Source: Mesoterricola silvestris
GTDB taxonomy: Bacteria > Acidobacteriota > Holophagae > Holophagales > Holophagaceae
Assembly: GCF_030295405.1 (NCBI RefSeq)
Contig: NZ_AP027080.1
Span: 2,108,001-2,172,000, forward strand
Length of the DNA: 64,000 nucleotides
Direction of reading: 5' to 3'
This document shows, piece by piece, positions 129 to 39,918 of this stretch. The notes under the pieces are model-generated. The model was not told the origin of the DNA, did no database searches, and saw only the letters and a program-made list of their open reading frames with translations. The translations under genes were made by a program, and so were the position numbers. How positions within the stretch are numbered: position 1 is the stretch's first letter; every line of letters begins with the position of its first letter.

Positions 129-364
129 CTGACGTTCTTTATCCTGCTCTTTCCCCTGGATCCTGTTCATCCCCGTTTGTACTTCGCCGGGAGTTTTTTC
201 CACCTTTGGGTCAAGGACGTCGAGTAACGTGCGCTCCGACCCACCTCGGCGTCAGCCCTGCGGAAACCGGGATGAACGCCGATGGATGGGATGAACCGGG
301 ATCCGCTCGACCTGGAACAGCCCCTTCATCACGGGTTCAAGGCGCCTGGGGTTTGCCGACACAC
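129..364 (-). repeat. Dispersed ~235-bp repeat, copy A
   Basis: Read on the minus strand, this segment aligns nearly end to end with 29640-29876 and with the two halves at 36011-36104 and 38014-38150. Shared blocks are the left end GTGTCGGCAAACCCCAGG, the block GATGAAGGGGCT, the block CATCGGCGTTCATCCCGG, TTTCCGCAGGGC, the block ACGTTACTCGACGTCC and the right end CAGGATAAAGAACG. No protein is supported in it. It fills the space between the stop of the Ig-like gene and the stop of the downstream convergent kinase. It carries the 15-base group II intron target at 270-284, uninterrupted. Confidence 0.85.
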
Positions 365-380
365 CCGAGCGAAGCCCCAT

Positions 381-4220: not shown

Positions 4221-4279
4221 CCCTCCAGCCTAAACCAAATCGCGGGCCCCGGCGCCAGTGCCCGGAAAGACATTCGCGC

Positions 4280-4690
4280 GTGTCCCGGACCTTCGCCCCG
4301 GTTCGTTGCCACGGGCGGGCCCGCGGCAACGGAAAGCCCGCACCCCGGACCTGGGCCCGGGTTGTCACCCATTGGCCCCGACCCTGCGTCGGGGGTCGCT
4401 TCGCGTGGTTTGGCGGGGATGGGGAAGCGCGCCAACGCTGAACACCTCGTGGCCTGCACACCATCCAGCGTCGGCGCCCGCCGGCACCGGGATCCATCAC
4501 GCGAAGCGAATTCTTGAACCCATTGACAGCCGCTCCCAGCCTGGGGCCTCCCGGAGGGCCCTTCCGCTCCGCCCTCCACCCCCTCCCAACGAAGTGAATA
4601 GGCGAAGCCCAGCCCCCACGTCCCTTCCGCCCCACCCCGTCATCGCCGGCTTGTCCGGCGATGACGAAACGGGGCGAAGGTCCGGGACAC
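4280..4690. repeat. Palindromic-arm repeat, expanded copy, in a 479-bp gene-free gap
   Basis: The 4221-4699 gap has no convincing gene. Its left arm at 4280-4300 (containing GTCCCGGACCTTCGCCCCG) is matched exactly, in reverse complement, by the arm at 4670-4690. Just inside each arm is a further stem-loop: CGTTGCC...GGCAACG near 4304-4332 and CGTCATCGCCGG...CCGGCGATGACG near 4638-4665. In the other two copies (25426-25497, 39820-39896) the same arms lie only about 35 bases apart. This copy therefore looks like two neighbouring elements, or one element opened by about 330 bp of unrecognised DNA. It sits between the start of cinA and the end of the EF-G-like gene. Confidence 0.75.
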
Positions 4691-4699
4691 GGATCCTTG

Positions 4700-6733
4700 T
4701 TAGGCCTCGGCGAGGGCCTTCTTCCGGGCCTCGACGACCTTTTCGGCGTCGCGGCCTTCGAGTTCCTGGAGGTGGTGGAAGGACCAGGTGAAGGAACCCA
4801 CGCCCTGGGTCTGGCTGCGGAGTTCGACGATGATGCCCTGGAGCTCGGACTGGGGGAGGTAGCCGTCCACGATGTCCCAGCCTTCCCATCCGGGCTTGGC
4901 GTCGAAGCCGAGGATCTGGCCCGCGCGGTGGCTGGTGATGATCTTCTGGGCCTTGGAGGTGTGCTCCGAGGGAACCGAGATGTGGATCTCGAGGATGGGT
5001 TCGAGCAGTACGGGGCTGCACTGGGGCAGGCCCTCGTTCATGGCCACGCGGGTGGCGGCCTTGAAGGCCATTTCGCTGGAGTCCACGGTGTGGAACGACC
5101 CGAAGAAGAGCACGGCCTCCACGTCCACCATGGGGAAGCCCAGGGGGCCCTGCTTGGCGAATTCGTAGAACCCGTTCTCCACGGCCGGGATGTAGTTCTT
5201 GGGGATGACGCCGCCGACGATGGTGTCGGAGAACTTCAGGCCCTCGCCGCGCTGCCGGGGCTTGAACTCGATGTGCACGTCGCCGAAGGCGCCGTGGCCG
5301 CCGGACTGGTGCTTGTAGCGCCCGTGCTGCTTCACGGGCTTGCGGATGGTCTCGCGGTAGGGGATGGTGGGCTGGGCGAAGGTGACCTCCACGCCCCAGC
5401 GGCGGATGCGGTCCAGGGCCACCTTCAGGTGGATCTCGCCCTGGCCCCAGATCACGCGCTCCTGGGTCTCGGCGTTCTGCTCGATGGTGTAGGAGGGATC
5501 CTCGTCCACCAGCTTCTGGATGGCGGAGGAGAGCTTCACCTCGTCGCCGCTCTTGGCGCAGCGCACCGCCAGCGCGGTCATGGGCTGGATGGGGTCGGGC
5601 CAGGGCAGCTGGACGGGAGTGTTGAGGGTGAGGCAGTCGCCCGTCTTGACGGATTCCATGCGGCCCAGGGCGACGATCTCGCCGGCCCCGACCTTGAGCG
5701 CCTTCTCCTGCTTGGCGCCGAAGGGCTTGGTGAGGGAGCTGGGGCGGCCGGCGGCGAAGGCCATGCCTTCGGTGACCTCCCCGTGCCACACGCGGGCCAG
5801 GGAGAGCTTGCCCACGTGCTGGGCGTTGAGGGTCTTCCACACCTGGAGGAGGACCTCCTTGCCGTTGGCGATGCCCAGGCGCGACGCGGTGTCGGCGGGC
5901 TCGGGGCCCTCGTGGCGCAGGAGCTTCAGGAGGCGGCGGACGCCCAGGTCCTTGTCGGCCGAGCCCAGGAGCACCGGCACGATCTGGTCGCCCTTGAAGC
6001 CGCGGGTGAGGGTGGCGAACACCTCCTCGCGGGTGGGCACCTGCTCCTCCAGGAGCTTCTCCATGAGGGCGTCGTCCAGGGTGCTGATGGCTTCCAGCAT
6101 CTCCTGGCGCGCCAGGAGGGCCTCGTCGCGGATGGAATCGGGGATGGGGATCTCGTCGGAGGGATGGCCGGGGTTGGCCTTGAAGGCCCGCTCCATGCTC
6201 AGCTCCTCGTAGCCCGTGATGAAGCTCCCGGCGTGGATGGGATACTCGCGCAGGACCAGGGGATGGGGCGACATGGGCTGCAGGGCGCGCAGGGTCTCGG
6301 CGATCTTGCCGGGGTCCGTGAGGCTGTCCACCTTGTTGAGGAAGATGGTGTGGGGGATGTTGTGGTCGTCCAGGAGCTTGAGGATGGGGGCGGCCATGGG
6401 CGCGCGGGTGGGATCGGCCTCGCACACCACGACGGCGGCGTCGGCCACCATCAGGGCGTTGATGCTCTCCTGGCTGAACTCCACGGAGCCGGGGCAGTCG
6501 ATGAAGGTCCAGGTCTCGCCCAGGTAGGTGGCGGTGGCGACCGAGGCCTCGACGCTCATCTGGCGCGCCTTGGCCTCGACGGATGCATCGCCGACGGTGT
6601 TGCCCTCCTTGACGGTCCCCTTCCGGGGGATGGCGTTGGCGGCGAAAAGGAGGCTTTCGAGAAGGGTGGTCTTCCCGGACATGTACGGCCCGACGATGGC
6701 CGCAACACGAGGGGCTGATTGGGGCTTTGGCAC
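4700..6733 (-). CDS. EF-G-like translational GTPase, divergent
   Basis: A 677-residue protein of the elongation factor G superfamily with the usual layout: GTPase domain, domain II, then EF-G domains III-V. The P-loop is GPYMSGKT (15-22) and the G4 motif NKVD (133-136). The G3 motif reads DCPGS (79-83) instead of DTPGH, so the histidine that triggers GTP hydrolysis in ordinary EF-G is a serine. This marks an EF-G-like paralogue and probably not the housekeeping FusA. The GTG start at 6733 is chosen because AAGGAG lies eight bases upstream and it puts the P-loop near the N terminus. An ATG at 6778 and a TTG at 6805 are in-frame alternatives. No ribosomal genes are nearby, so its role is open. 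Confidence 0.85.
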   Translation of the reverse strand: MPKPQSAPRVAAIVGPYMSGKTTLLESLLFAANAIPRKGTVKEGNTVGDASVEAKARQMSVEASVATATYLGETWTFIDCPGSVEFSQESINALMVADAAVVVCEADPTRAPMAAPILKLLDDHNIPHTIFLNKVDSLTDPGKIAETLRALQPMSPHPLVLREYPIHAGSFITGYEELSMERAFKANPGHPSDEIPIPDSIRDEALLARQEMLEAISTLDDALMEKLLEEQVPTREEVFATLTRGFKGDQIVPVLLGSADKDLGVRRLLKLLRHEGPEPADTASRLGIANGKEVLLQVWKTLNAQHVGKLSLARVWHGEVTEGMAFAAGRPSSLTKPFGAKQEKALKVGAGEIVALGRMESVKTGDCLTLNTPVQLPWPDPIQPMTALAVRCAKSGDEVKLSSAIQKLVDEDPSYTIEQNAETQERVIWGQGEIHLKVALDRIRRWGVEVTFAQPTIPYRETIRKPVKQHGRYKHQSGGHGAFGDVHIEFKPRQRGEGLKFSDTIVGGVIPKNYIPAVENGFYEFAKQGPLGFPMVDVEAVLFFGSFHTVDSSEMAFKAATRVAMNEGLPQCSPVLLEPILEIHISVPSEHTSKAQKIITSHRAGQILGFDAKPGWEGWDIVDGYLPQSELQGIIVELRSQTQGVGSFTWSFHHLQELEGRDAEKVVEARKKALAEA

Positions 6734-24680: not shown

Positions 24681-25412
24681 ATGATCAATCGGGCCATGCT
24701 CTCCACCCTGACGCTGACCGGTGCGCTGCTCTGCGTCGGGTGTTCCTCCGAGGACCGCCTCAAGAAGGTCGAGGACCAGGTCACGGACCTCAAGGTGGAA
24801 ATCTTCAAGCTGCGCAGCCAGATGGAGGACGGCAACAAGAAGGCCGCGGACGAACGCCAGGCCTCCGAGGTCTCCCGGGCCCAGGACCGGCGCTTCCAGG
24901 CCGATCTCCAGGAAACCATGCGCCAGCTCCAGGACAGCACCCGGGTGCTCAACAACCGCCTGGGCGACGCCGTCGCCGCGCCGCGGCGCCCCGCCGCCCG
25001 CCCCCAGGCCGCCGAGGAGCCCCCGGCGGCCTCCTCCGACGACGAGAAGGCCTTCAATTCCGCCGTGCTGGACTACAACCGCGGCAACTACGCCCTGGCC
25101 GCCGACGGCCTGTCCCTGTTCCTGAAGGCCCACCCCCAGAGCCCCCGGGCCTCGGACGCCCTCTTCTACCTGGGCCTCTCCTCCTACAACCAGAAGGCCT
25201 ACGACAAGGCCCAGCCCTCCTTCGAGCGCATCCTGAAGGAGTACCCCACCTCCAACCAGTTCCTCCCCGCCAAGCTCAAGCGCGCCCAGTGCCTCCTGAA
25301 GCAGGGTCTCAAGCCCGCCGCCATCAAGGCCTTCAAGGAGATCACGGACAACTTCCGCGGCACCCCCGAAGCCCGCACCGCCAAACAGGAACTGGACGAC
25401 CTGGGCTTCTAG
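24681..25412 (+). CDS. cpoB: CpoB/YbgF-like periplasmic TPR lipoprotein
   Basis: A 243-residue protein with a lipoprotein-like signal (C21 in ALLCVGC). A coiled coil follows (about 25-95, EDRLKKVEDQVTDLKVEIF in heptads), then a proline/alanine linker. The C-terminal TPR domain (about 120-243) has FNSAVLDYNRGNYALAADG, ALFYLGLSSYNQKAYDKA and KRAQCLLKQG. CpoB coordinates peptidoglycan synthesis with Tol-dependent outer-membrane constriction. The ATG at 24681 follows GGAGG; the frame also allows an upstream GTG at 24675 inside that site. Third gene of tolB-pal-cpoB. Confidence 0.9.
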   Translation: MINRAMLSTLTLTGALLCVGCSSEDRLKKVEDQVTDLKVEIFKLRSQMEDGNKKAADERQASEVSRAQDRRFQADLQETMRQLQDSTRVLNNRLGDAVAAPRRPAARPQAAEEPPAASSDDEKAFNSAVLDYNRGNYALAADGLSLFLKAHPQSPRASDALFYLGLSSYNQKAYDKAQPSFERILKEYPTSNQFLPAKLKRAQCLLKQGLKPAAIKAFKEITDNFRGTPEARTAKQELDDLGF

Positions 25413-25425
25413 CAGGCGCCCGAGC

Positions 25426-25497
25426 CCCGGACCTTCGCCCCGGGTCGTCATCGCCGGCTTGTCCGGCGATGGCGACCCGTGGCGAAGGTCCGGGACC
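25426..25497. repeat. Palindromic-arm repeat, compact copy
   Basis: CCCGGACCTTCGCCCCGGG on the left pairs with GGCGAAGGTCCGGG on the right. An inner stem CATCGCCGG/CCGGCGATG closes around CTTGT. It lies 13 bases after the cpoB stop and 17 bases before the stop of the convergent response regulator. It can fold on either strand and would suit a bidirectional transcript end. Same family as 4280-4690 and 39820-39896. Confidence 0.85.
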
Positions 25498-25514
25498 CGT
25501 ACGATTGCCTAGCG

Positions 25515-27960: not shown

Positions 27961-29637
27961 ATGGCCTTCGTGACCCATCTGCTCGCCCACAACCCCCTGC
28001 TGATGCTCTTCGCGGTGGTGGCCCTGGGCTACCCCATCTCGAAGATCCGGGTGGCCGGGGCCTCCTTCGGCATCGCCAGCATCCTTTTCGCGGGCATCGC
28101 CCTGGGCGCCGTGGTGGTCACCCCCGGCCTGGACCCGGTGGTGAAGAAGGACATCTCCCGGGAGATGAAGCTCATCTACGAGCTGGGCCTGGCCATCTTC
28201 GTCTACGCCATGGGCCTGGCCATCGCCCACAGCTTCTGGGCCTCGTTCAGCAAGGAGGGCATCAAGAAGAACGCCGTCGTGGCGGTGGTGATGTTCACCA
28301 GCACGGCGCTGGTGGTGGTCCTGGCCAAGGCGCTGCGCTTCGACAGCCGCTACGCGGCGGGCCTGCTGGCGGGCTCGTTCACCAACATGCCCGCCCTGGC
28401 CGGCGTCATCGAGGCCCTCAAGCGCACCACCTCCGACGCCCTGGTCATCGCGCAGCCCACGGTGGCCAGCGCCATCGCCTACCCCATTGGCGTGCTGGTG
28501 CCCATGCTCAGCATTCCCCTGAGCCGGAGGATCTTCAAGGTGGACCTGGAGCGGGAGGCCGCCTCCCTCCACGGCTCCAGCGCCGGCTCCAGCCACCTGA
28601 AGGCCCGCACCATCGAGGTGGAGGCCCGGGCCGCGGGCCGCACCCACGTGGATCTCCGGGAACAGGCCAACTGCAAGGTGGTGTTCAACCGCCTCCGGCG
28701 GGGTGGGGAGTTCTTCCTGGCCCCGCTGGACGTGGCCCTGGAGGAGGGCGACCTGCTGGTGGTGGTGGGCACCCCCGAGGACGTGGAGCGCGCCCAGGCC
28801 TTCCTGGGCCGCAAATCGGACATCGCACTGCAGCACGACATCAGCGAGTACGACTCCACCCGGGTCTTCGTGAGCAACCACGATCTCATCGGGCGCCCCC
28901 TGCGGGACCTGCAGCTGCCCGAGAAGCACAACTGCATGGTCAGCCGCCTCCGCCGGGGCGACGTGTGGTTCGTGCCCGACGCCGACACCGTGCTGGAGCT
29001 GGGCGACCGCATCCGCGTGGCCACCGCCCGGGACAACATCGCGGCCGTGGAGGAGCTCTTCGGGGACAGCTACCGGGAGCTCTCCGAGGCCAGCTTCCTC
29101 ACCTTCGCCATGGGCATGGCCCTGGGCCTGGCCGTGGGCCAGATCCCCATCCCCCTGGGCCACGGCATCATCTTCAAGCTGGGCTTCGCCGGCGGGCCCC
29201 TGGTGGTGGGCCTCGCCCTGGGCCGCTTCCACAAGATGGGCCACTTCGTGTGGAACATCCCCTACAGCGCCAACCACACCATCCGCCAGTTCGGCCTGGT
29301 GCTCTTCGCCGCCGGCATCGGCGTGATCTCCGGGGAAGGCTTCCGCCAGATCCTGGCCCGCAACATCAGCTGGCTGCCCATCTTCATGGCCTCGGCCCTG
29401 ATGGTGGCCACCGTCGCCGACACCCTGGCCTACTGGCTCGGGCACAAGGTCTTCCGCATCCCCTTGAGCCTGCTCTTCGGCATCGTGGCGGGCACCCACA
29501 CCCAGCCGGTGGTGCTGGGCTACGCCACCCAGCAGTCCAAGAACGACCTGCCCAACGTGGGGTTCGCCGCGGTGTACCCCCTGGCGACGATCCTCAAGAT
29601 CGTGCTGGCCCAGGCGCTGCTGGCCATGGCGCTCTAG
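27961..29637 (+). CDS. AspT/YidE-type transporter with two TrkA-C domains
   Basis: A 558-residue inner-membrane protein of the aspartate:alanine exchanger superfamily. Six or so helices at the N terminus (1-190) are followed by two cytosolic TrkA-C regulatory domains (about 215-295 and 300-375) and a second helical block (about 385-558). Visible signatures are AGLLAGSFTNMPAL in the first half and the matching GIVAGTHTQPVVLGYA in the second, the paired repeats of this family. The ATG at 27961 follows GGAG. The transported anion or amino acid is not predictable. Dispersed repeat copy B starts two bases after its stop. Confidence 0.82.
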   Translation: MAFVTHLLAHNPLLMLFAVVALGYPISKIRVAGASFGIASILFAGIALGAVVVTPGLDPVVKKDISREMKLIYELGLAIFVYAMGLAIAHSFWASFSKEGIKKNAVVAVVMFTSTALVVVLAKALRFDSRYAAGLLAGSFTNMPALAGVIEALKRTTSDALVIAQPTVASAIAYPIGVLVPMLSIPLSRRIFKVDLEREAASLHGSSAGSSHLKARTIEVEARAAGRTHVDLREQANCKVVFNRLRRGGEFFLAPLDVALEEGDLLVVVGTPEDVERAQAFLGRKSDIALQHDISEYDSTRVFVSNHDLIGRPLRDLQLPEKHNCMVSRLRRGDVWFVPDADTVLELGDRIRVATARDNIAAVEELFGDSYRELSEASFLTFAMGMALGLAVGQIPIPLGHGIIFKLGFAGGPLVVGLALGRFHKMGHFVWNIPYSANHTIRQFGLVLFAAGIGVISGEGFRQILARNISWLPIFMASALMVATVADTLAYWLGHKVFRIPLSLLFGIVAGTHTQPVVLGYATQQSKNDLPNVGFAAVYPLATILKIVLAQALLAMAL

Positions 29638-29639
29638 GG

Positions 29640-29876
29640 TGTGTCGGCTGACTCCAGGTGGCTTGAAACCGTGATGAAGGGGCTCTTCCAGGTTGAGCGG
29701 ATCCCAGTTCATCCCATCCATCGGCGTTCATCCCGGTTTCCCGCAGGGCCTACGCAGAAGTGGGTCGAAGCGCAAGTTACTCGACGTCCAAGACCCGAAG
29801 GTGGCGGCAACTCCCAGCGAAGTTCAAACGGGGATTAACAGGATCCAGGGGAAAGATCAGGATAAAGAACGTCAGG
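29640..29876 (+). repeat. Dispersed ~235-bp repeat, copy B
   Basis: This is nearly collinear with the reverse complement of 129-364. It starts GTGTCGGCTGACTCCAGG and ends CAGGATAAAGAACGTCAGG. The CATCGGCGTTCATCC intron target at 29719-29733 is intact and uninterrupted. About 50 bases further on, at 29925-29939, an inverted copy of the element's left end (GGGTTTGCCGACAC) appears, so the whole block is bounded by inverted termini. No gene is supported from 29638 to 29915. Confidence 0.85.
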
Positions 29877-29915: not shown

Positions 29916-31034
29916 TCAAGATCTAGGGTTTGCCGACACTCCCTCGTCGAGGATCGTCCGCAGCGCCGCAAGCCCCGCCCCGGTGAGCGGTGTGCCCGGG
30001 GCGTCCAGGGCCGCGCGGAGCTTCTGGTCGCGCCGGCCCATGGGCAGCTCCGGCAGGCGCTCCCCGGGGACCCATTCCAGCCCCTGGGCCCCGGGGGCCG
30101 AGGCCATGCGCGCCACGATGGGGCGGACCGTCTCGCGGCGGTGGGAGTAGACCTGGACCCACCCCGGCAGCTCCCGGGCTTCCAGGCCGTAGCCCGAGGC
30201 CGCTTCCGCGGCGCCTTCCAGCTCCGGCGCGGCCTCCGCCCGGGGCCAGCTCCAGAGGCCCGCCAGCAGGCCCCGGGAGGCCGGTGGGCACAGCAGCCAG
30301 CCCCGGGGGGACCGGATGGCCGCCAGGTGGATCTCGGCCTCGGTGACCTTCGCGCGGGGCTGGACCGGGGGGATGCGTTCCTGGAGGCCCCGGGCGCGGG
30401 CCGCGCAGGCCCCCAGGAGGGGGCAGGAGGCGCAGCGCGGCACCGGGGTGCACACGGTCGCCCCCAGTTCCATCACGGCCTGGGTGAGCCGCGAGGGGCC
30501 GTGGGCGGCCAGGGCCGGGGCGAGCCAGTCCCGGAGGGCGGCGGCGTGGCGGCGGGGATCGCCCTCCAGGGCGAGTACCCGCGCCGCCACCCGGAAGGCG
30601 TTGCCGTCCAGGGCGGGGGTGGGCAGCTGGAAGGCCTGGGCGGCCACGGCGGCCGCGGTGTAGGGGCCCAGGCCCGGCAGTTCCAGGAGGCCTTCGAGGG
30701 TGCGCGGGAAGCCGGCCCCGGCGATGGCCCGGGCCGCGGCCTGGAGGTTGCGGGCCCGGCGGTAGTAGCCGAGGCCCGCCCAGAGGCCGTGCACCTCGTC
30801 CTCCGTGGCCGCGGCCAGGGCCTCGGCGTCCGGGAAGCGCTCCATCCACCGCGTGAAGTACGGGATCACCGTGGCCACCTGGGTCTGCTGCAGCATGATC
30901 TCCGACACCAGCACGGCGTAGGGGTCGGGGTGGGGCGCATCCAGGTCCCCGGCCCGCCAGGGCATGGGCCGGCGCCGGGCGTCGAACCAGGGCGCGAGGG
31001 GAGCGAGGAGGGCGGTGGCCGGGGCGAAGGGCAT
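29916..31034 (-). CDS. mutY: A/G-specific adenine DNA glycosylase
   Basis: A 372-residue base-excision repair enzyme that removes adenine opposite 8-oxoguanine. The helix-hairpin-helix and catalytic region has LQQTQVATVIPYF with the catalytic glutamate in the preceding SEIM, GLGYYRRARNL, and LPGLGPYTAAAV with the catalytic aspartate in ALDGNAFRV. The four iron-sulfur cysteines are in CTPVPRCASCPLLGAC. A Nudix-like C-terminal domain (about 240-345) recognises 8-oxoguanine. The last seven codons and the stop fall in the inverted terminal sequence of repeat copy B, so the original C terminus has probably been replaced. Confidence 0.93.
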   Translation of the reverse strand: MPFAPATALLAPLAPWFDARRRPMPWRAGDLDAPHPDPYAVLVSEIMLQQTQVATVIPYFTRWMERFPDAEALAAATEDEVHGLWAGLGYYRRARNLQAAARAIAGAGFPRTLEGLLELPGLGPYTAAAVAAQAFQLPTPALDGNAFRVAARVLALEGDPRRHAAALRDWLAPALAAHGPSRLTQAVMELGATVCTPVPRCASCPLLGACAARARGLQERIPPVQPRAKVTEAEIHLAAIRSPRGWLLCPPASRGLLAGLWSWPRAEAAPELEGAAEAASGYGLEARELPGWVQVYSHRRETVRPIVARMASAPGAQGLEWVPGERLPELPMGRRDQKLRAALDAPGTPLTGAGLAALRTILDEGVSANPRS

Positions 31035-34694: not shown

Positions 34695-36005
34695 ATGAAG
34701 ATCCTGCTCATCGGCTCCGGCGGCCGGGAACATGCCTTGGCCATGAAGCTGAAGTCCGGGCCCGTCCCCGTGGAGCTCTTCGCGGCGCCCGGCAGCGACG
34801 CCCTCGCGGAACTGGGCACATGCCTGGCCTACCCCGTGGAGGATATCCCCGGGATCACCGCCTGGTGCGCGCGCCACCGGCCCGACCTGGTGGTGGTGGG
34901 TCCCGAGGTTCCGCTGGTGGCGGGGCTCGCCGACGCCCTGCGCCGGGAGGGCGTGGCCGTCTTCGGCCACGACGCCGCCACCGCGCGCCTGGAGGGAAGC
35001 AAGGCCTTTGCCAAGGATTTCATGGTCCGCCACGGCATCCCCTGCGCCGGGAGCCGGACCTTCACCGCCCTGGAGGCCGCCGAGGAGGCCATCCGGACCT
35101 GGGACCTGGGCCTGCCCATCGTCCTCAAGGCCGACGGCCTCGCCGCGGGCAAGGGCGTGGTGCTGGCCGGGAGCCCCGGGGAGGCCCTGGCCACCGTGAG
35201 GGCCTTCATGGCCGGCCAGTTCGGCGAAGCCTCCCGCACCGTGGTGCTGGAAGCCCCGCTCGTGGGCATGGAGCTCTCCCTGCACGTCCTGGTGGACGTG
35301 GACGCCGGCCACGCCGCCTTCGTCATGCTCCCCCCCTGCCAGGACCACAAGCGCATCTTCGACGGGGACCGGGGGCCCAACACCGGCGGCATGGGAGCCT
35401 TCGGCCCCATCCCCTTCCTTTCCGCCTCCGACCTGGACCGGCTGCGCAGGGACCTGGTGGAGCCCACCGTGGCCGGCCTGGCCAAGGACGGCCTGCGCGC
35501 GCGCGGGGTGCTCTTCCTGGGGGTGATGTGGACGGCCCGGGGCCCGGAGCTCCTGGAATACAACGTGCGCTTCGGGGACCCCGAGACCCAGGTGCTCATG
35601 GAGCTCCTGGACGAGGACCTGGCCACCCTGCTGCTGGAGGTGGCCCAGGGCCGCCTGCGCCGGGATTCCGTGAAGCTCCGCCCCGGCTGCGCCATCACCG
35701 TGGTGCTGGCCGCCGGCGGCTACCCCGAGGGCGCCGAGAAGGACGTCCCCATCGCCCTGGGAGCCCCCGGGGGCGTCAAGGTCGTCCATGCCGGAACCCG
35801 CAGGACCCCCGCGGGCTGGGTCACCGCCGGCGGCCGCGTCCTGAACCTCGTGGCCACGGCCCCGGACCTGGAGGCCGCCCGCGCCAGGGTGGAGGCCGCC
35901 GTCGCCCAGGTGGGCTGGCCAGGCATGCAGAGGCGGAGCGACATCGGGCTGCGGGCCCTGAACCACGCGAAGGCGGGGCGGACGGTGGGGGACGCGTTCC
36001 TGTAG
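34695..36005 (+). CDS. purD: Phosphoribosylamine-glycine ligase
   Basis: A 436-residue GARS enzyme that makes glycinamide ribonucleotide in purine synthesis. The N domain starts KILLIGSGGREHALA. The ATP-grasp region has GSKAFAKDFM, PIVLKADGLAAGKGVVLA, the QDHKRIFDGDRGPNTGGMGA stretch in segments, and YNVRFGDPETQ. No other purine genes are adjacent. The stop is followed within six bases by the left half of repeat copy C, which holds the group II intron. Confidence 0.96.
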   Translation: MKILLIGSGGREHALAMKLKSGPVPVELFAAPGSDALAELGTCLAYPVEDIPGITAWCARHRPDLVVVGPEVPLVAGLADALRREGVAVFGHDAATARLEGSKAFAKDFMVRHGIPCAGSRTFTALEAAEEAIRTWDLGLPIVLKADGLAAGKGVVLAGSPGEALATVRAFMAGQFGEASRTVVLEAPLVGMELSLHVLVDVDAGHAAFVMLPPCQDHKRIFDGDRGPNTGGMGAFGPIPFLSASDLDRLRRDLVEPTVAGLAKDGLRARGVLFLGVMWTARGPELLEYNVRFGDPETQVLMELLDEDLATLLLEVAQGRLRRDSVKLRPGCAITVVLAAGGYPEGAEKDVPIALGAPGGVKVVHAGTRRTPAGWVTAGGRVLNLVATAPDLEAARARVEAAVAQVGWPGMQRRSDIGLRALNHAKAGRTVGDAFL

Positions 36006-36010
36006 AGGGG

Positions 36011-36104
36011 GCGTGTCGGCAAACCCCAGGTGCCTTGAAATCGCGATGAAGGGGCTCTTCCAGGTTTGGGGATCCCCGTTCATCCCTTCCATCGGCGTTC
36101 ATCC
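36011..36104 (+). repeat. Dispersed repeat copy C, left part (5' exon of intron)
   Basis: It starts GTGTCGGCAAACCCCAGG, the same left end as copies A and B, and runs through GATGAAGGGGCTCTTCCAGG to CATCGGCGTTCATCC, where the alignment stops abruptly and the intron begins. It carries the intron-binding sites: IBS2 at 36090-36097 and IBS1 at 36098-36104. Confidence 0.88.
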
Positions 36105-36669
36105 GTGCGCCACGAAAGGCGCTTCATCTCCCAGGAGGTCCAAATAAAACAACCTGAGAGATAGCAGCTGTGCTGCATGAGAGATGGGGGTAGGCCCCCC
36201 GGGGTCGGGCTGCAGGGCCAGATCCCAAACCACCGGGCGCTGCGTGGGGGTGACACCCCAGGTGGTGAGCGGACCCGGAAAAGGCGGGGGAACCCCCGTC
36301 AGGTAGGGACAGGGAAGGCGAACAAAAGTGAACCGCTGATGAGGCGTCGAAAGAGATCAAAAGCCATCGAAACCAGGCTCCGGATGAAGTCCTGGGACCA
36401 AGCCCGGAAGGGACCTGCTTACGGTCCGGGCGGTGGCCGGCGTAGAAGCGGCGCGAGCCCTGTCCAGGCTCTTGTGTGGAACGTGGGAACCGAGCGTCCC
36501 GATGCCAAGGGAGAAGTCCGAGGGGTAGTCCCCCGTAGGGCGAGAGTACCGAAGCGGGGCGCCGGGGCGGACCGGTCCGTAGTAGCGACGATGCCCGGTA
36601 ATGCGGGTGGAGCCAAGGGACCGGCCTGTCCGGCTTCAAATGCGGGTCAACCCTCCGGGGGAAGAGCAC

Positions 36670-37950
36670 GTGTCTGAAGCGAAGCCTTACAGCATTTCCA
36701 GGGAACAGGTCGCCGAGGCATGGCGTCTGGTCCGGGCCAACCGGGGAGCAGGGGGCGTGGATGGAGAAACCCTGTCGATGTTTGACAAGGATCTGGAGGG
36801 CAACCTCTACAAGATCTGGAATCGGATGTCGTCGGGCAGCTACTTCCCGCCGCCGGTGAAGCGGGTGGAGATTCCCAAAAAGGACGGCCGGACGAGACCC
36901 TTGGGCATTCCGACCGTGGCGGACCGAGTGGCCCAGATGGTAGCCAAGCAGGTATTGGAGCCTTTGGTGGAACCCATGTTCCACGAGGACTCCTACGGCT
37001 ATCGGCCGGGTCGTTCGGCACTGGATGCCGTAGCAAAGGCAAGGGAGCGCTGCTGGCGCCTGGACTGGGTCATCGATCTGGATATCAAAGGATTCTTTGA
37101 TAACCTGCCGCATGACCTGATCCTCAAGGCGGTTCGGCACCATACCGAGTCGGATTCGGCCCTGAAGTGGATCCCCCTGTACGTGGAACGGTGGCTCAAG
37201 GCCCCGGCCCAACGGGAGGACGGAACCCTGCAGGAACGGACGGCGGGAACGCCGCAGGGCGGGGTGATCAGCCCATTGCTGGCCAACCTGTTCATGCACT
37301 ATGCGTTCGATGCCTGGATGGGGCGGGTCTTTCCGAACGTCCCGTTCGAGCGGTATGCCGACGATGCGGTGATCCATTGCGTGAGCCTGGCCCAGGCCAA
37401 ATACGTCCTGGAAGGGGTGCGCAGGCGATTGAAGGACAAGGGGCTGGAACTCCACCCGGAGAAAACGAAGATCGTCTACTGTAAGGACGATTCGCGCCCG
37501 GGGGACCATGACCACACGGCCTTCGACTTCCTGAGCTACACCTTTCGGGGGCGGTCGGTGAAGACCCGGGACGGAAAGCTCTTTGTGGGCTTCAATCCGG
37601 CCATGAGCGACAAGGCGAAGAAGGCCGCTCGGGAAGCCATCCGGGAGTGGAAACTGACGACGAAGATGAACACCAAGACCCTGAGCGAGCTTGCCTCGTT
37701 CATCAATCCCATCGTCAGGGGATGGGTCAACTACTATGGGCGGTTCCACCGCTCGGAGTGCCTGGAACTTCTCGACTACCTGAATCTGGTCCTGGCCCGC
37801 TGGGCCAAACGGAAATACAAGCGGTTCCACCGGGACTGGACGGCAGCCTTTCGTTGGTTGGGCGACATTGCCCACCAGCGGCAAGAAGGGCTGTTCTACC
37901 ACTGGACCCTGGGAATACGACCTGGAGGCTGGGCAGGACGAGCCGGATGA
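36670..37950 (+). CDS. ltrA: Group II intron reverse transcriptase/maturase
   Basis: A 426-residue intron-encoded protein. The reverse transcriptase domain has NRGAGGVDG, RPLGIPTVADRVAQ, the SYGYRPGRSA stretch, LDIKGFFDN, TPQGGVISPLLANL and the catalytic YADD (residues 229-232). The maturase (GIIM) domain follows (about 310-420: FVGFNPAMS, VRGWVNYYGRFHRSE, WAKRKYKRF). No HNH endonuclease domain follows, so mobility would not use second-strand cleavage by this protein. The GTG at 36670 is chosen because GGGGGAAGAG precedes it; ATGs at 36601 and 36640 are in-frame alternatives. The stop falls inside domain V. Confidence 0.94.
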   Translation: MSEAKPYSISREQVAEAWRLVRANRGAGGVDGETLSMFDKDLEGNLYKIWNRMSSGSYFPPPVKRVEIPKKDGRTRPLGIPTVADRVAQMVAKQVLEPLVEPMFHEDSYGYRPGRSALDAVAKARERCWRLDWVIDLDIKGFFDNLPHDLILKAVRHHTESDSALKWIPLYVERWLKAPAQREDGTLQERTAGTPQGGVISPLLANLFMHYAFDAWMGRVFPNVPFERYADDAVIHCVSLAQAKYVLEGVRRRLKDKGLELHPEKTKIVYCKDDSRPGDHDHTAFDFLSYTFRGRSVKTRDGKLFVGFNPAMSDKAKKAAREAIREWKLTTKMNTKTLSELASFINPIVRGWVNYYGRFHRSECLELLDYLNLVLARWAKRKYKRFHRDWTAAFRWLGDIAHQRQEGLFYHWTLGIRPGGWAGRAG

Positions 37951-38013
37951 GGTGAGAGTCTCACGTCCGGATCCGTGAGGGCGCGGGGGGGCAGTTCCCC
38001 CGCGCTACTCGAC
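37940..38013 (+). ncRNA. Group II intron domains V and VI
   Basis: Domain V begins GAGCCGGATGAGGTGAG and ends CACGTCCGGATC, giving the catalytic AGC triad and a two-part hairpin. Domain VI has a GCGCGGGGG/CCCCCGCGC stem closed by GAG/CTC, with an unpaired adenosine at 38007 as the likely branch point. In domain V the partner of the triad G reads A (GGATC), where the common form has U (GGTTC). Confidence 0.85.
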
Positions 38014-38150
38014 CGGTTTCCGCAGGGCCGCCGCAGAGGTGGGTCGGAGCGAATGTTACGTGACGTCCATGACCCAAAGGTGGCGACAACTCCCAGCGAA
38101 TTTCCAACGGGGATGAACAGGATTCTGGGGAAAAGGCAGGATAAAGAACG
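38014..38150 (+). repeat. Dispersed repeat copy C, right part (3' exon of intron)
   Basis: It resumes the repeat exactly where 36104 left off: CGGTTTCCGCAGGGC, then GTGGGTCGGAGCG, the TTACGTGACGTCC block, and CAGGATAAAGAACG at the end. The next gene (asparaginase family) starts 44 bases later. Confidence 0.87.
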
Positions 38151-39808: not shown

Positions 39809-39819
39809 AGGGAGCGTCC

Positions 39820-39896
39820 GTGTCCCGGACCTTCGCCCCGCATCGTTGTCGCCGGCCCCGCCGGCGACAACGACCCGGGGCGAACGTCCGGGACAC
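39820..39896. repeat. Palindromic-arm repeat, compact copy
   Basis: GTCCCGGAC and GTCCGGGAC arms close on an inner TTGTCGCCGG/CCGGCGACAA stem. It lies 11 bases after the GNAT stop and 22 bases before the stop of the convergent subtilase, the same convergent setting as the copy at 25426-25497. It can fold on both strands. Confidence 0.87.
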
Positions 39897-39918
39897 GTAG
39901 GCCTAAGGAACCAGGATG

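Follow-up and report, generated by a model that had tools for sequence, protein, structure and literature searches.

We wanted to understand why a group II intron of Mesoterricola silvestris lies precisely inside a dispersed repeat, and whether the intron homes to such repeats or was carried by them. The window that we analyzed is a stretch of 64,000 nucleotides of the M. silvestris chromosome, and coordinates given without a further label refer to it.

The intron and its protein

Positions 36105-38013 of the plus strand are a complete group II intron of 1909 nt, which begins with GTGCG at 36105. Two Rfam models matched it, both with scores above their gathering scores. The match to group-II-D1D4-2 (RF01999; 94.9 bits, E 4e-18) covers the core of domain I (36186-36304, plus strand), and the match to Intron_gpII (RF00029, domains V-VI; 52.8 bits) covers 37938-38013, its last base being exactly 38013. 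The RF00029 alignment places domain V at 37940-37973 (plus strand) and domain VI at 37976-38011 (plus strand); the fold agrees with the latter, and the branch-point A (38007) is the seventh base counted from the 3' end of the intron. The initial annotation had described domains V and VI with a bulged A and had proposed a covariance model as the check. We ran it, and domains V-VI were accepted with the 3' end in the same place.

Domain IV contains an open reading frame (36601-37950, plus strand; 449 aa from the first ATG). This frame is intact, as had been claimed, with YADD encoded at 37354-37365, and the protein matched TIGR04416 (418 bits), RVT_1 (PF00078) and GIIM (PF08388). The actual start codon could be as far as about 25 codons 3' of the first ATG, given that relatives resemble the protein only from near residue 20 onwards. 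The Pfam scan gave no endonuclease domain, and the frame stops soon after the maturase domain. In pairwise comparisons, made without a reference tree, the protein was 55-63% identical to endonuclease-lacking relatives, including proteins of Sinorhizobium meliloti and Bradyrhizobium, and it is likely, judged from these sequences, to belong to class D (RmInt1-like, IIB3). It shares 58% identity with a related S. meliloti intron protein; we rejected giving this match the name RmInt1 and treat it as a relative.

The host repeats and the seven copies

The intron divides a repeat of approximately 300 bp, which we call U, into a 5' part (36011-36104, plus strand) and a 3' part (38014-38150, plus strand). 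The left terminal inverted repeat, GCGTGTCGGCAAACCC, is at 36011-36026 by alignment to the U consensus. When the flanks were rejoined, they aligned across the junction with 86-87% identity to two empty copies in the window with an intact intron site, at 133-366 (minus strand) and at 29637-29871 (plus strand; right inverted repeat near 29926-29941). The two halves were thus correctly described as rejoining without loss or gain.

The inverted repeats of U are close to GGGTGTGTCGGCAAACCC and often adjoin CTAG. We examined the ends for target-site duplications; many read CTAG or YTAR, and the pairs are often degraded. Elsewhere in the genome these inverted repeats also delimit an element of 1.5 kb (about G000:C1:840,080-841,590; locus L191, about 380-1890), in which we found parts of a transposase (DUF4096, DDE_Tnp_1) and a GxxExxY gene (PF13366). 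The U consensus aligns to L191 only at 5-165 and 578-653, the GxxExxY and transposase genes being missing. By sequence comparison U is a MITE that derives by internal deletion from a GxxExxY-carrying IS5-type element, because it has its terminal inverted repeats in common with a transposase-bearing element and both genes are deleted. The nested mobility that had been proposed for this locus is therefore right, and the host repeat is itself a mobile element.

The IS5-type element was also seen at L192-L194, in each case with its transposase as a frameshifted pair and with a GxxExxY (PD-(D/E)XK) gene between dispersed-repeat arms, and GxxExxY genes may be cargo of such elements. An apparent intermediate MITE (L070, about G000:C1:3,276,190-3,276,966) seems to retain GxxExxY without the transposase. 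MITE ends often coincide with CTAG or CTAA at gene stop codons (for example at 36005-36026), and the sites lie mostly 3' of a gene that runs the same way (40 sites, against 7 with an opposite gene); an insertion preference or a 3'-UTR role is possible. A separate dispersed inverted repeat (CGTGTCCCGGACCTTCGCCCCG...) at 4275-4703, 25409-25510 and 39814-39904 is unrelated to the intron target.

A second host repeat, the palindrome P (approximately 158 bp), can bear the intron site on both arms, one per strand. A strict arm pattern of the repeats was found only within the genus when 60 relatives were searched. In the gap between purD and the asparaginase gene, neither repeat nor intron was found in four sister species, and the fifth differs after purD.

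The M. silvestris genome (G000; 4.99 Mb) contains exactly seven copies of the intron, 100% identical over 1909 nt, and their reverse transcriptases are its only group II intron reverse transcriptases. The ends of all seven coincide exactly. The initial annotation had held that the ends were known to the base and had named copies with other boundaries as the observation that would speak against it; there are six further copies, with no exceptions. Six of the seven directly follow the 14-mer ATCGGCGTTCATCC at the same position of the dispersed repeat, in agreement with the idea that the repeat is the homing site of the retroelement. This 14-mer was found 71 times in the genome, 65 of these sites being empty, and its reversed control was not found at all. 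A simple arm test assigned 45 of the exact sites to U repeats and 26 to palindromes. Of the six repeats that host standard copies, three cluster with U and three with P; one of them (the host of L001) is borderline, with a U-like left flank. The seventh copy (L002) lies in a related palindrome behind a looser site, TATCCCCGTCCATCC.

A comparison with 396 genomes of the phylum showed the intron at high identity in this one only, which makes a recent arrival in M. silvestris probable, and the seven identical copies would imply recent mobility.

The best explanation, to which we give a probability of about 0.88, is that an endonuclease-lacking mobile intron of the RmInt1 type homes through EBS1 and EBS2 to the arm sequence common to the MITE and the palindrome, both of which are lineage-specific. 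The ribonucleoprotein would reverse-splice into IBS2-IBS1 while this sequence is single-stranded on the lagging-strand template, cDNA synthesis would be primed by nascent lagging-strand DNA, and the intron would recently have spread in this way to seven repeats. We infer splicing, retrohoming activity and lagging-strand priming of the M. silvestris intron from its sequence. The reduced pairing of the seventh copy (6 of 7 IBS1 and 6 of 8 IBS2 positions) counts against this explanation.

Strand, site and spread

The copies at 2.14, 2.22 and 2.27 Mb are on the plus strand and those at 2.83, 3.36, 3.66 and 4.61 Mb on the minus strand. Origin and terminus were placed by dnaA (position 128 of the genome) and by the KOPS skew, which flips between 2.52 and 2.65 Mb; GC skew was too weak in M. 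silvestris and was dropped. All seven copies run with the replication fork, while the exact sites are 39 co-directional and 32 contra-directional (P about 0.015-0.03). This is as would be expected of RmInt1-like insertion into the lagging-strand template. Reverse splicing into that template has been described for RmInt1 (PMC8914252), and lagging-strand bias is known for several classes of intron-encoded protein (PMC8919778).

An unrelated intron of a sister species (G398) behaves in the same manner. It is 1999 nt long, lacks an endonuclease, matches Rfam D1D4-6 and encodes a protein 34% identical to that of M. silvestris. There are ten copies with identical ends (G398:C1; L201, L205, L208-L215). 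All follow GGGGATGNACGGGGA-type arms (GGGGATGAACGGGGA-type), the two most divergent being GGGGATGCACAGGGATAGACGGGGA and GGGGAGACACGGGGATACACGGGGA, and most lie in visible palindromes like those of M. silvestris. The strands of these copies predicted an origin at 2.94-4.0 Mb, and dnaA was then located at 3.31 Mb. With origin and terminus placed also by half-chromosome distance, all ten copies are fork-directed, which makes 17 of 17 for both introns combined (P about 4e-5 or less at the 39/71 rate). We looked for a clear EBS1 in this intron and found only a 6-base pairing, TCTCCG with CGGGGA. A relative with 77% identity in G399 occupies a site without the G398 arm motif.

The orientation could also be due to transcription or selection, if the introns depend on transcription from an upstream gene and the usual direction of genes is that of the fork, and four of the five occupied sites that could be scored do lie 3' of a gene of the same direction. 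By the same rough coding score, which left 18 empty sites unscored, the empty sites are alike (40 same vs 7 opposite), so that the direction of the upstream gene does not tell occupied and empty sites apart. We therefore do not regard upstream transcription as supported and consider it an unlikely cause of the orientation.

Returning to homing by base pairing, the 5' exon ends with IBS2 (CATCGGCG, 36090-36097, plus strand), whose bases are identical at the six standard insertion sites, and IBS1 (TTCATCC, 36098-36104, plus strand). In domain I, EBS2 (CGCTGATG, 36334-36341, plus strand) forms 8 pairs with IBS2, one of them G-U, and EBS1 (GGATGAA, 36382-36388, plus strand), in the loop of a CCAGG/CCTGG hairpin, forms 7 pairs with IBS1. 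Both pairings had been proposed and could be located as described. We rejected them as proof in themselves, because in shuffled domain I sequences a match for EBS1 arose in 52% of trials, for EBS2 in 12% and for both in 6%. We used covariation instead. Among relatives, the EBS1 and IBS1 of the same intron pair at a mean of 6.4 of 7 positions vs 4.2 when shuffled (0 of 5000 shuffles), and this covariation is strong evidence for recognition of IBS1 by EBS1. The spliced joint predicted at the purD copy is TTCATCC/CGGTTTCC.

Recognition of the target as a DNA hairpin, as by group IIC introns at terminators and attC sites, would dispense with long base pairing. A strong palindromic fold was seen for three M. 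silvestris hosts, and by eye most of the G398 hosts look palindromic. However, three hosts are MITEs whose junction forms no such hairpin, the M. silvestris hairpin lies 3' of the site and not 5', IBS2 and IBS1 are conserved over 14-15 bases, and EBS1 and IBS1 covary across relatives. We consider this reading improbable. An assignment to group IIC was likewise rejected, the hairpin being absent or downstream and EBS2 pairing over 8 bases.

Most of the aligned close relatives adjoin (Y/F)ADD codons on their 3' side, in what appear to be other reverse transcriptase genes. The EBS1 of these relatives, AGTCGTT, pairs with GAYGAYT. Because most close relatives insert behind YADD codons, the M. silvestris intron, with the same architecture and new EBS1 and EBS2, appears to have been retargeted from reverse transcriptase genes to a genomic repeat, a reading drawn from one clade without a rooted tree. 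Such insertions were seen at the 5' junctions of L109, L111, L113-L117, L119, L120, L125, L126, L128, L131, L133, L136 and L180. They occur in many phyla, exactly one base past the YADD-coding codons, and the codons of the reverse transcriptase active site are a homing niche of the close relatives.

The occupied repeats of the six standard copies are only 56-87% identical to one another, and the nearest match of each occupied repeat is an empty one. Since the flanks diverge by 13-44%, the introns are identical and the nearest repeats are empty, each intron copy reached its old, divergent repeat separately, by independent retrohoming and not by MITE transposition. The repeat predates the intron. 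As the copies share one genome, they may not represent wholly independent events. It is very improbable, and we reject it on the comparison of flanks, that one MITE or palindrome captured the intron and then transposed or spread by homologous recombination: the host repeat does derive from a transposon with inverted repeats, and the copies are identical as after recent transposition, but the six standard flanks differ by 13-44% where the introns differ by none, every occupied repeat is nearest to an empty one, and the hosts comprise both MITEs and palindromes.

Relation to known systems

A wider reading is possible, although we hold it as somewhat less probable than its opposite. Lineage-specific families of MITEs and palindromes could generally serve as harmless landing pads that are presented on the lagging-strand template, and unrelated introns without an endonuclease could converge on them through changes of EBS1 and EBS2, one lineage coming from the YADD codons of reverse transcriptase genes and another arriving separately in the sister species. 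For mobile introns, such repeats seem to be safe places to land. The system offers a clean natural series: a single intron has seven identical copies, 65 exact sites are still empty, a sister species has the repeat but not the intron, and another intron provides an independent replicate. In this series target choice, the choice of strand at the fork and the retargeting of endonuclease-lacking introns become directly testable, and the series suggests that genomes are buffered by their non-coding repeats against damage from introns. The EBS/IBS pair is a natural case of multi-copy targeting.

An incomplete literature search on group II introns of this bacterial group and on those inside MITEs gave no direct precedent; nor did it give an earlier report of an intron family that homes to a MITE/palindrome family, or of the convergence of two unrelated introns on a single family of this sort. 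What appears to be new is that the target is a MITE or palindrome and that two introns have converged on such repeats. The proposed mechanism and the nesting are of a known kind, that of RmInt1 in ISRm2011-2.

RmInt1 of S. meliloti (class D/IIB3) is similar in its endonuclease-lacking protein, its multiple copies and its transposable-element host, and it too favours the lagging-strand template (PMC5894124, PMC8914252, PMC4238363). It differs in that it interrupts the transposase gene of an IS630-Tc1 element, whereas the M. silvestris intron has a non-coding target, the MITE or palindrome of an IS5-type element, in which 71 exact sites are present. Introns of Pseudomonas putida KT2440 also insert into an extragenic palindromic repeat, with two of nine group II introns inside REP elements (PMC1525189); there this is a minority of the copies, while here it is all seven, and all ten of the unrelated G398 intron. 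Group IIC introns, found at terminators and attC hairpins, likewise lack an endonuclease and lie near inverted repeats (PMC4424553), but the M. silvestris intron uses IBS1 and a long IBS2 in a IIB-like manner, its ribozyme matches D1D4-2, and the hairpin, where present, is downstream. The nested introns (twintrons) of Thermosynechococcus are alike in that retrohoming into already dispersed elements colonises the genome (PMC2882425); their target is another intron, and that of M. silvestris is a derivative of a DNA transposon.
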